Assembly: GCA_017480095.1 (NCBI GenBank)
Contig: JAFVBG010000001.1
Location: forward strand, 1 to 49,924
DNA from: Candidatus Saccharimonadota bacterium
Lineage (GTDB): Bacteria > Patescibacteriota > Saccharimonadia > Saccharimonadales > Saccharimonadaceae
Length of the DNA: 49,924 nucleotides
Direction of reading: 5' to 3'
Positions within the stretch are counted from its first letter, which is position 1. Every line of letters starts with the position of its first letter. The notes beneath the pieces were generated by a model. That model ran no database searches, was not told the DNA's origin, and was given only the letters and a program-made list of their open reading frames with translations. Made by a program: the position numbers and the translations under genes. Of the stretch, positions 7,316-10,580 are shown piece after piece.

Positions 7316-7390
7316 TCCCCGGTAGCTCAATGGTAGAGCGTTCGGCTGTTAACCGAAATGTTACTGGTTCGAATCCAGTCCGGGGAGCCA
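7316..7390 (+). tRNA. tRNA-Asn(GTT)
   Basis: Acceptor TCCCCGG/CCGGGGA, anticodon stem TTCGG/CCGAA with loop CTGTTAA (anticodon GTT), T arm GGTTCGAATCC, discriminator G, encoded CCA. Confidence 0.97.
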
Positions 7391-7452
7391 TTTTTGTGCA
7401 AGACTCTTTAGAGGTTTGCAGCAAAAATGCGAGCGGACGTTGGATCCATATT

Positions 7453-7467
7453 CAGTCCGGGGAGCCA
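7453..7467 (+). repeat. 15-bp duplicate of the tRNA-Asn 3' end
   Basis: CAGTCCGGGGAGCCA here is identical to 7376-7390, the 3' end of tRNA-Asn including CCA. The rest of the tRNA is missing. Such direct repeats are typical of integrase attachment-site duplications or of a decayed tandem tRNA; only 62 bp separate the copies. Confidence 0.7.
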
Positions 7468-7472
7468 TAAAT

Positions 7473-7498
7473 GAGACCCCTTAGGTCTCTATTTTTTA
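7473..7498. terminator. Bidirectional terminator
   Basis: GAGACC / GGTCTC hairpin (7473-7489) followed by TATTTTTTATT on the plus strand. It overlaps the end of the minus-strand gene. Confidence 0.65.
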
Positions 7499-7713
7499 TT
7501 CTTTCTGTTCTTTGACATCTGGAAAATGTATTCAAAAATGCCAACGAACACACCGATTACAATCGGCTCGATTACGTATTTGTAGGTATCCCACTCTTTA
7601 ACCCCGCCTTGAAAAAGCATTTCAAAGAGCGGCGTACAAATTGCCCAGATTACCGCTACGGATATTGCCGTAGCTACGGCTTGGCCAATGCGAGATTTCA
7701 GAAAGTCTTTCAT
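7489..7713 (-). CDS. Small two-helix membrane protein, unknown function
   Basis: 74 residues. Two hydrophobic helices (about residues 10-30 and 48-66) are joined by LFQGGVKEWDTYKY and followed by a basic tail SKNRKNKK. The size and topology resemble small holin-like or phage-membrane proteins, but no family signature is visible. AAGGAGAATT lies just before the ATG, and a minus-strand TATAAT is at 7744-7739. It lies next to the duplicated tRNA-Asn end, which would fit a remnant of an integrated element (inference). Confidence 0.65.
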   Translation of the reverse strand: MKDFLKSRIGQAVATAISVAVIWAICTPLFEMLFQGGVKEWDTYKYVIEPIVIGVFVGIFEYIFQMSKNRKNKK

Positions 7714-7804: not shown

Positions 7805-7833
7805 TTGACTTTTTTAGAATATTTGGGTATAAT
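7805..7833 (+). promoter_or_regulatory. Promoter of the micro-peptide/QueC-like unit
   Basis: TTGACT (7805-7810), 17-nt spacer, TATAAT (7828-7833). Predicted start about 7840, giving a 12-nt leader for the micro-ORF and about 115 nt for the enzyme gene. Confidence 0.75.
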
Positions 7834-7851
7834 ATGAATTAAGAAGGGCAT

Positions 7852-7926
7852 ATGTCCAGATTAAATACTACAAATTTGACTAAGAATACTTTGAAGTCTG
7901 CCACGCTTGCGTGGTACGGCTATTAG
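7852..7926 (+). CDS. 24-aa micro-ORF, possible precursor or leader peptide
   Basis: Starts MSRLNTTNLT and ends SATLAWYGY before TAG, rich in Thr, Asn and Leu with an aromatic C-terminus. AAGAAGGG lies 3 nt upstream (short spacing). It lies between a good promoter and the QueC-like gene, 28 nt before that start codon. Codons 17-21 contain a CCACGC-TT-GCGTGG hairpin. It could be a substrate peptide for the downstream enzyme or a regulatory leader; neither is proven. Confidence 0.45.
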   Translation: MSRLNTTNLTKNTLKSATLAWYGY

Positions 7927-7954
7927 TTCTAGGCTTTAGAAATCGAGGCTTTTG

Positions 7955-8779
7955 ATGCGTGAAGAAAAAGTCGAGATTTTTTGTGCGAATAAGAATAAAA
8001 ACAAGGTTAACCGTGAGGCGATCAAGATTTTCTGCACGGGCGGTCTGGATTCTTCCTATATGTTGTGTAAGCTTTCACGGAGAAAAGTAACCTTGCAACC
8101 GATTTATGTCTTGAATCCAAAGCGAGCCAGCCGTAAATATGAACTGAAGGCAATCCGCAAGATTATTTCTAAACTCTTGAAACACCCTGGCACCAAGGCA
8201 GAGATTAAAAAGTTGAAGATTGTTAATCTCAGTAGGATTAAAATTAACAAAAAAGTAACAGAGGCTAGACACCGTTTAGGCAAGAAATATGGCGAGATGG
8301 GCTGGCAGTATGATTATCTTGTCTCGCTAACGGAGAAAATTGGGCCGGTAGGTTTGGGCATTGAGAGTAACCCTATCGACGGTGAGAATGTAACTCTGCA
8401 GAAAGCGGTGACACTGAAAAAGACTCGCTATGGCTACGTGGTTGACCGAGCAAAATCTTCGGAGGATGCGGTGACGCTATTCGGAAACTTTTTCTACCCA
8501 ATTTTGGACGATACGGAGCAGTTTATGTTGAGCTGGGCGGATAAGTATGGTTATACCGATATTTTGAAGTTGATTTGGTTTTGTCATCGCCCGATTCATG
8601 GCAAACCTTGCGGACTTTGTTCACCATGCGAAGGTAAGATGCAGGCAGGCATGGAGATTCTGTTGCCACTTGAGGCTAGAAAACGTTATTATAGGGCGAA
8701 AAAGATGAGCTTCTTTGGTAAAAACGTTTCGCATTTTTGCAAACGGACGATTTACCGAGTTTTGTTAGATTTGCTTTAA
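7955..8779 (+). CDS. QueC-like PP-loop ATPase (7-cyano-7-deazaguanine synthase homologue)
   Basis: 274 residues. The N-terminal PP-loop pyrophosphatase motif reads CTGGLDSS (residues 27-34; SGGxDS in the family). Near the C-terminus, Cys210, Cys219, Cys222 and Cys225 (C-x8-C-x2-C-x2-C in WFCHRPIHGKPCGLCSPCEG) reproduce the QueC zinc site spacing. True QueC converts carboxy-deazaguanine to preQ0 with ATP and ammonia. QueC-like proteins also act in defence systems (Qat; Cap9 of type IV CBASS), modifying proteins or nucleic acid. No queD, queE, queF or tgt gene is in the window, and the protein is longer than QueC, with a basic C-terminal tail of about 45 residues. Start at ATG 7955 after a GAGG site. 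Confidence 0.78.
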   Translation: MREEKVEIFCANKNKNKVNREAIKIFCTGGLDSSYMLCKLSRRKVTLQPIYVLNPKRASRKYELKAIRKIISKLLKHPGTKAEIKKLKIVNLSRIKINKKVTEARHRLGKKYGEMGWQYDYLVSLTEKIGPVGLGIESNPIDGENVTLQKAVTLKKTRYGYVVDRAKSSEDAVTLFGNFFYPILDDTEQFMLSWADKYGYTDILKLIWFCHRPIHGKPCGLCSPCEGKMQAGMEILLPLEARKRYYRAKKMSFFGKNVSHFCKRTIYRVLLDLL

Positions 8780-8807
8780 AAAAGCATCTGTGGTATAATT
8801 GAAAGAT

Positions 8808-10580
8808 ATGCAGGCCCAAGAAAAGGTAATCCAGATTGCTGGATCGATTACAGTTGATGAACTAGCGCAGGCGCTAGGGCTTTCTGTGACTACTTTGATT
8901 GGCCAACTTTTTAAAGAAGGCATCGTTGCAACTATCAACCAGCGCCTTGATTATGACACGGCTTCGATTATCGTCGATGAGCTGGGGCTGACTGGTGTCC
9001 GACTAGAGAAGAAAAACTCTTCTACGCAGATTTCAAACCAGCGTCGCGAGCTTTCCGATAGAGCCGTAGAACGTCCACCGGTGGTGGCGGTGATGGGGCA
9101 CGTCGATCACGGTAAAACTACTTTGCTTGATACGCTTTTGAATAAGAAGACCGTAGAGGGTGAAGCTGGTGGTATTACCCAGCACATCTCGGCCTATCAG
9201 TTGAAGCACGATGATCGGATGATTACATTCCTCGATACTCCTGGGCACGAAGCTTTTGCTGCGATTCGCCAGCACGGTGCAATGCTGACGGATATTGTTG
9301 TGATTGTGGTGGCGGCGGATGACGGTGTAAAGCCACAAACGGTAGAGGCGATTAAGTTTGCTCAAGGGGCGAACGCGAAGATTATCGTGGCGATTAACAA
9401 AATTGACCGCGAAGGTGCAGACGTACAGCGCACGATGGCAGACCTGTCTCAGCATGGTCTCCAGCCGGAGGAGTGGGGCGGTGATATTACGATGGTGCCA
9501 ATCTCGGCGAAGCGCGGGGATAACCTCGACAAACTCTTAGACATGATTCTTTTGACGGCAGACCTAGAGGAGTTGAAGGCGGATGTCGATATTCCAAGTG
9601 AAGGCTTGGTGATTGAAAGTCACATGGAAGTCGGGAAAGGCTCGGTGGTGAATCTTTTGGTGACGGGTGGCGAGCTCAAGACAGGTGAATTTATCGTGGC
9701 AGGGAACACTTATGGTAAAATCCGCACAATGCTAGATTGGAAGGGAAAACCAAAGGGTAAGGCGACGCCTTCTACCCCCGTGACGGTGACTGGCTTCAAA
9801 GAGCTGCCAAACTTTGGTGATCGTTTTATCGAGGCGAAAGATGAGAAAACCGCACGCAAGCTGGCGTTGCTCAATGCTAACGCTTCGGCCGATGCAGCAG
9901 CGAATGCCAATGTCACCTCTGGTGATTTGTTGCGCATGATGAACGTAGCAGATAATTCCAAGGTGTTTAACGTCCTGATTAAAGGTGACGTGCTCGGCTC
10001 GGTAACTTCGGTAGTGGATAGCCTGAAAATGATTGATACTAAGGGTGAAGTGACTTTGAACATCGTAGCGACAGGGGTCGGCGATGTGACGGAAAATGAT
10101 GTCTATATGGCAACAGGTGAAAACACCGTGATTTATGGCTTCAATGTTTCGGTGCCAGTCAACATCTCGAAGATGGCGGCGCGCGACAATGTGCCAATTA
10201 AGTGCTACAAGGTGATTTATGAGCTACTGGATGACGCCAAGAGTGAGATGGAAGATCTGCTTGATGCCGAAATTGTCGAGGAAGATGCTGGTGAAATGAA
10301 GGTGAAAGGAGTATTCCGTACCGAGCGTACATCGATTATCGCTGGTGGGGAAGTCTTGAAAGGTATCTGCAAAGCTGGTTTGTTGGCAAAAGTAGTGCGC
10401 AATAAGCAAGAAATCGGCGAAGTGGAAGTCGAAAGCGTCCAGAAAGAGAAGATTGCGGTCAACGAACTGGTGGCAGGGGAGACTGGCGGTTTGGCGCTAA
10501 AAACAGAACACAAGATTCAGCTGGAAATTGGCGACCGTTTGAAGTTCTTCACTAGAGAACTACGCAAAAAGAAGTTATAA
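8808..10580 (+). CDS. infB: Translation initiation factor IF-2
   Basis: 590 residues with a short N-terminus: one IF2_N helical domain (about residues 10-60), then the GTPase domain with G1 GHVDHGKTT (97-105), G3 DTPGH (143-147), G4 NKID (197-200) and SAK G5, followed by the beta-barrel and C-terminal tRNA-binding domains. IF-2 places fMet-tRNA on the 30S subunit. The long low-complexity N-terminus of E. coli IF-2 is absent. TATAAT at 8794-8799 leaves 8 nt to the ATG and there is no Shine-Dalgarno, so it is close to leaderless. It faces fmt-def, which make and remove the formyl group. Confidence 0.96.

Follow-up and report, generated by a model that had tools for sequence, protein, structure and literature searches.

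Locus and insertion site

The window, that is the whole stretch of DNA analysed (49,924 nucleotides), belongs to an 813 kb genome in 8 contigs (97.9% complete), whose relatives are Candidatus Saccharibacteria of the episymbiont type. The part of interest holds an intact gene for a QueC-like enzyme in a small cassette between a tRNA gene and infB:

7316..7390 (+): tRNA-Asn(GTT), found by ARAGORN and Rfam; left border of the variable site
7489..7713 (-): ORF for a 74-aa membrane-type protein, part of the same insertion
7805..7833 (+): strong sigma-70-like promoter TTGACT-N17-TATAAT, matching 11 of 12 consensus positions, the best site of the region
7852..7926 (+): 24-codon ATG ORF (MSRLNTTNLTKNTLKSATLAWYGY, stop TAG), probably incidental or a non-conserved leader
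7955..8779 (+): intact gene, ATG at 7955, for a QueC-like PP-loop/zinc enzyme of 274 aa (phrog_1550 match, AlphaFold2 model, alignment)
8799..10580 (+): infB, which bounds the site on the right and has a separate TATAAT upstream

The layout of promoter, 24-codon ORF and 274-codon QueC-like ORF given in the earlier note is borne out by the sequence. The infB gene is conserved in 38 of 40 genomes of the genus, and tRNA-Asn adjoins it in most of about 29 relatives. The gap between the two measures about 165 bp in G021, closely related as judged by infB, versus about 1410 bp in the window, and in other relatives the same spot is occupied by unrelated small genes. The tRNA-Asn/infB interval is a variable site, and the window cassette is an insertion there. 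The 74-aa ORF has no match in Pfam or PHROGs. Sixteen bases around the 3' end of tRNA-Asn (CAGTCCGGGGAGCCAT, 7376-7391) recur 77 bp downstream (7453-7468), a repeat that looks like the remnant of an integration site.

A subfamily of QueC-like enzymes

The window protein carries the PP-loop TGGLDS at residues 28-33 (8036..8053, +), of which G30 and D32 are invariant in 33 homologues, and the zinc site C-x8-C-x2-C-x2-C at residues 210-225 (8582..8629, +), with all four cysteines invariant in the same set. The 33-row alignment A2 likewise displays invariant R57, E63, G116 and Q118 and a conserved W-F-C-H-x-P. The best-fitting profile is the phage family phrog_1550 ("QueC-like"), which the window protein matches at E=7.8e-10 and which is matched by all 33 family members (best 4.8e-16). 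The Pfam QueC model (PF06508) is matched at 0.0075 with 16.2 bits, under its cut-off of 22 bits, and NCBIfam QueC (TIGR00364) gives no match at E<=0.1. The designation "QueC-like" in the earlier note is correct at the level of the superfamily. Canonical QueC is defined by the motifs YxQxHxxE, VPxRN and YPDC, which form part of its substrate pocket, are tied to deazaguanine binding and are largely kept in Cap9 (PMC13329287). All three are missing from the window protein and from alignment A2, where Y-x5-R-x-S-x3-E and (L/I/M)GxQY stand in their place. A Pfam QueC match elsewhere in the host genome (C3:128745) was set aside as an apparent TilS, read by eye from its sequence MKKILAVSGGVDSMVLLH...

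A scan of genome contigs with the single sequence and a scan of viral contigs with a small profile both found nothing; a three-row alignment recovered 37 genome loci, and the nearest homologue is from a yak reticulum genome. No plasmid relatives were found. The family occurs in Bacillota, Bacteroidota, Fibrobacterota, Verrucomicrobiota, Planctomycetota, Pseudomonadota, Actinomycetota and Saccharibacteria, and also in phages. It is annotated generically, when annotated at all. The window gene is a member of this coherent, unnamed subfamily of QueC-like (N-type ATP pyrophosphatase) enzymes. In Pontibacter (L032:2813-6732) apparently three genes of the family lie close together, and in Shimia (L044:5162-6747) apparently two are arranged in tandem.

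The AlphaFold2 model of the window protein has a pLDDT of 91.3. Its best match among solved structures is Cap9 in its NDG complex (Z 12.5, rmsd 3.5 over 164 residues, 18% identity), which Foldseek likewise ranks first, followed by QueC (Z 11.0) and by QatC (Z 10.2), the latter tied with other PP-loop enzymes. At the sequence level phmmer found no match of the window protein in the PDB, and the family profile matches significantly only QueC (5.6e-6).

The 24-codon reading frame

The earlier note put forward the small peptide as a possible substrate of the enzyme, and some features of the leader favour such a role: the ORF shares the promoter with the enzyme gene at tight spacing, and AAGAAGG, a Shine-Dalgarno-like sequence, precedes its ATG. 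The ORF may nonetheless be a product of chance. When the 121-nt leader is shuffled with its dinucleotides preserved, 4.8% of the shuffles yield a closed ATG ORF of 24 aa or more, and 1.0% yield one with a Shine-Dalgarno-like 4-mer; the whole window contains 167 ATG ORFs of 20-40 aa, 16 of them with such a 4-mer. A search around QueC-like homologues, whose upstream regions that note had proposed to examine, found no counterpart among all 252 short ORFs lying at most 400 bp from 36 such genes (best score 28 versus a shuffled-peptide mean of 29.0, with 132 of 200 shuffles as high). Across 60 genomes of the genus, the peptide matched only the window itself and, in one of the 59 others, a sequence at chance level (G027, E=0.31) that lies beside an unrelated gene with no QueC-like gene near. 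The proteins known or proposed to be modified by Cap9 and QatC carry an N-terminal glycine (PMC13279940), whereas the peptide starts with MS and not MG. Because the peptide is not conserved, can arise by chance (1-5%), starts with MS and lies in an ordinary leader, we consider it extremely unlikely to be the substrate of the enzyme.

A riboswitch or structured leader was rejected, as the leader matches no Rfam regulatory family or riboswitch and its predicted RNA fold is ordinary (z = -0.71). These same results weaken the case for a translated leader that would tune expression of the enzyme by coupling or attenuation. Such a role agrees with the position of the ORF, which begins about 14 nt past the transcription start expected from the promoter and stops 28 nt before the ATG of the enzyme, and with its Shine-Dalgarno-like sequence; no relative has the gene at the same site. 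We regard a translated leader as rather improbable. A species-specific leader function is possible, but most likely the ORF is incidental.

Linkage to rim genes in Saccharibacteria

The family is present in 9 of 174 genomes of the host genus and, in a class-wide sample of 393 genomes, in none of the other genera (one of 153). Seven of the nine copies (G018, G209, G014, G065, G282, G438, G074) have a RimK ATP-grasp ligase gene and a RimB-like retropepsin gene as neighbours. In most cases the genes overlap by 4 bp or are separated by 0-5 bp, and at least three arrangements occur: retropepsin-RimK-QueC-like in G018 and G209, retropepsin-QueC-like-RimK in G282 and G438, and retropepsin-R2K-QueC-like-RimK in G014 and G065. 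In G074 the QueC-like gene is a fragment at the edge of a contig and is oriented away from retropepsin-RimK. The ligase neighbour matches the S6-glutamate ligase model at 1.1e-96 (RimK), and the best match of the protease neighbour is RimB (4.6e-16). In G065 (L015:606-1478) and G014 (L009:5177-6007) the ATP-grasp gene directly upstream of the QueC-like gene is R2K_3/R2K_2-like.

The linkage is retained across copies that are just about 31-53% identical to that of the window. Due to their shared ancestry, the seven linked copies do not represent seven independent events. As the retropepsin is common (62 of 100 genus genomes) and the enzyme rare, rim loci with a QueC-like gene are a minority form, and the presence of the gene in so few genomes implies that the Rim system can do without it.

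The window copy is itself solitary, with the rimB-like retropepsin and rimK genes located on contig C3 of the same genome. In the tree the window protein groups with the rim-linked copies of G018 and G209 (support 100/99), from which we take it to be a relative of operon-borne copies. In the window's genome an ATP-grasp gene of L-amino-acid-ligase type (L010:6448-7677) lies beside the retropepsin-RimK pair in divergent orientation. RimK of Pseudomonas attaches glutamates to the C-terminus of ribosomal protein S6; RimB takes them off and also stimulates the synthesis of polyglutamate (PMC11957791). The S6 protein of the host genome ends in ...GEPTEEE, and acidic S6 tails are found in all seven genomes compared (host and six relatives). 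In the open literature, with most subscription papers outside the scope, we found nothing on QueC-like proteins with ATP-grasp ligases or on Saccharibacteria with RimK.

Copies in other bacteria and in phages

Outside Saccharibacteria most copies are solitary or lie inside surface-polysaccharide loci. Among loci with reliable gene calls, ATPgrasp_TupA shares first place as the most frequent neighbour family; GC-rich Lysobacter and similar loci, whose gene calls were unreliable, were left out of this count. These neighbours occur in L033, L043 and L052, in some cases on the opposite strand, and ATP-grasp genes in polysaccharide loci could be incidental. In a Peptococcaceae genome (L031) an ATPgrasp_ST gene follows 10 bp downstream of the QueC-like gene.

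In Saccharomonospora phage PIS 136 (L103:4001-5436) the QueC-like gene overlaps an ATP-grasp gene by 1 bp; the latter matches RimK (2.6e-7) and, weakly, R2K_3. The pair is kept in a further viral contig (L108:4001-5439), with 67% identity of the QueC-like proteins and an ATP-grasp match of 1.3e-132. Mycobacteriophages of the Muddy group carry the QueC-like gene between those for the major tail protein and the tail-assembly chaperone, as in Muddy (gp16, L094:5004-5555) and phage 8UZL (L095:2959-3567), a position that suggests modification of a tail protein. Other viral copies (L104, L105, L045) follow long genes resembling tail genes. Hutinet et al. described the Muddy protein as a singleton QueC-like outlier, probably of another N-type PPase subfamily (PMC6884629).

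Possible function of the window enzyme

Enzymes with the QueC fold adenylate a carboxylate and pass it on, QueC to ammonia and Cap9 to a protein N-terminus. Like QueC and Cap9, the window enzyme would most likely adenylate a carboxylate with ATP and join it to an amine. Its closest relatives sit in rim operons, which makes a protein- or peptide-modifying role probable, and substrates of this kind are also suggested by the linkage to amino-acid-tail ligases and a protease and by that to phage tail genes. The usual partners in Saccharibacteria are the RimK ligase and the RimB-like retropepsin, whose counterparts in Pseudomonas add and remove glutamates on the S6 tail. This makes a protein tail that is acidic or polyglutamylated (that of S6, or free polyglutamate) the probable target, and the QueC-like enzyme would amidate, cap or extend it. 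The window gene, solitary between tRNA-Asn and infB, would have left the rim operon or never entered it, and we infer a partnership in trans with the rim products.

Taken together, we see about an even chance that the window enzyme forms amides in an ATP-dependent reaction, in concert with ATP-grasp ligases, on carboxylates of proteins or peptides, probably polyglutamate tails. More tentatively, and with our doubts prevailing, it may be the third arm of the S6-tail system, a QueC-fold ligase capping or amidating polyglutamate that is made by RimK and trimmed by the RimB-type retropepsin, as part of a wider, so far undescribed partnership of QueC-like and ATP-grasp enzymes that includes phages. 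A function on rim-made tails has to be reconciled with the unlinked position of the window copy, with the mostly solitary or polysaccharide-associated copies outside Saccharibacteria, and with the rarity of the gene in the genus and the common descent of its linked copies.

Several other functions have to be considered. Conjugation of 7-carboxy-7-deazaguanine (CDG), salvaged from a host or neighbour, to a protein terminus in the manner of Cap9 or QatC would agree with the closest solved fold (Cap9 in its NDG complex), with the QueC-type zinc site and with TGT, a deazaguanine enzyme, which is present in all seven genomes tested (in the window's genome at G000:C5:76599-77789). However, QueD (PF01242) was found in none of these seven genomes, which makes 7-deazaguanine chemistry doubtful; combined with the loss of the canonical pocket motifs YxQxHxxE, VPxRN and YPDC it argues against CDG, and the rim genes come without a constant partner bearing an N-terminal MG. 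We therefore consider CDG conjugation unlikely, although these seven reduced genomes, with TGT and without QueD, may salvage a queuosine precursor. The linkage and this evidence against CDG lead us to favour amide formation on acidic tails with RimK. The enzyme could instead modify a small precursor of surface sugars or polymers, similar to the amidotransferase WbpG, a related PP-loop enzyme (PMC13329287), the rim linkage then reflecting amino-acid polymer chemistry. Several copies outside Saccharibacteria do lie among LicD, Wzy, glycosyltransferase, NTP-transferase and ATPgrasp_TupA genes; the rim operons, however, lack sugar genes, the phage copies adjoin tail genes and the cysteine motif of WbpG is absent, so that we judge this explanation improbable.

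A function in anti-phage defence, as raised in the earlier note, is consistent with the patchy distribution (9 of 174 genomes) and with the insertion at a variable site beside a tRNA gene. Against it, no defence genes adjoin, the signatures of Cap9 and QatC are absent, and phages themselves carry the family; PADLOC gave weak generic QueC matches and a single match to the QatC model (one of the 33 family members, E=0.0035). We regard a defence gene as very unlikely. The placement of the enzyme outside the queuosine pathway, probably acting on proteins or peptides, has fared better: no queuosine gene lies near it, QueD was not found in the genome either, and the operons with RimK, R2K and RimB-like genes as well as the phage tail or ATP-grasp neighbours support it.

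Protein modification by QueC-fold enzymes was recently shown in CBASS and has been proposed in Qat. A subfamily linked to ATP-grasp peptide ligases in several bacterial lineages and in phages suggests that further protein- or peptide-modification chemistry exists, and the window gene probably encodes such a modifying enzyme, so far undescribed. The operons of Saccharibacteria make this directly testable because a candidate partner (RimK), an eraser (the retropepsin) and a likely target (S6) are identified.

Comparison with known systems

The window enzyme shares with canonical QueC the fold, a TGGxDS-type PP-loop and the zinc site C-x8-C-x2-C-x2-C. It differs in the first residue of the loop (T in TGGLDS versus S in the SGGxDS of QueC) and in the zinc site, where it has CH at the place of the essential CY. 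PP-loop, zinc site and fold are also common to Cap9 of type IV CBASS, which is shorter (about 185 versus 274 aa). The window enzyme lacks the YxDC and RN signatures of Cap9, and its neighbours are tRNA-Asn, the 74-aa ORF and infB instead of CD-NTase and the TGT-like Cap10. QatC measures about 400 aa, has the motif C(x)19CGxCxxRR and is flanked by qatA/B/D, while the window enzyme displays C-x8-C spacing and no qat neighbours. The CxxC(x)6CxC that distinguishes WbpG (PMC13329287) is likewise not part of the window enzyme.

The phage proteins of phrog_1550 have the same PP-loop and zinc motif as the family. Muddy gp16, encoded beside the major tail protein gene, has 183 aa versus about 250-275 aa in bacterial members, and the rim linkage is seen in Saccharibacteria copies only. 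The paper describing R2K-clade ATP-grasp systems (PMC4431377) contains none of the terms QueC, PP-loop and ExsB; in G014 and G065 an R2K-like ligase gene sits next to the QueC-like one. To the published RimABK system of Pseudomonas fluorescens belongs the phosphodiesterase RimA, but no QueC-like protein (PMC11957791). Its other two members have their counterparts, RimK and the RimB-like retropepsin, next to the QueC-like homologues in Saccharibacteria.
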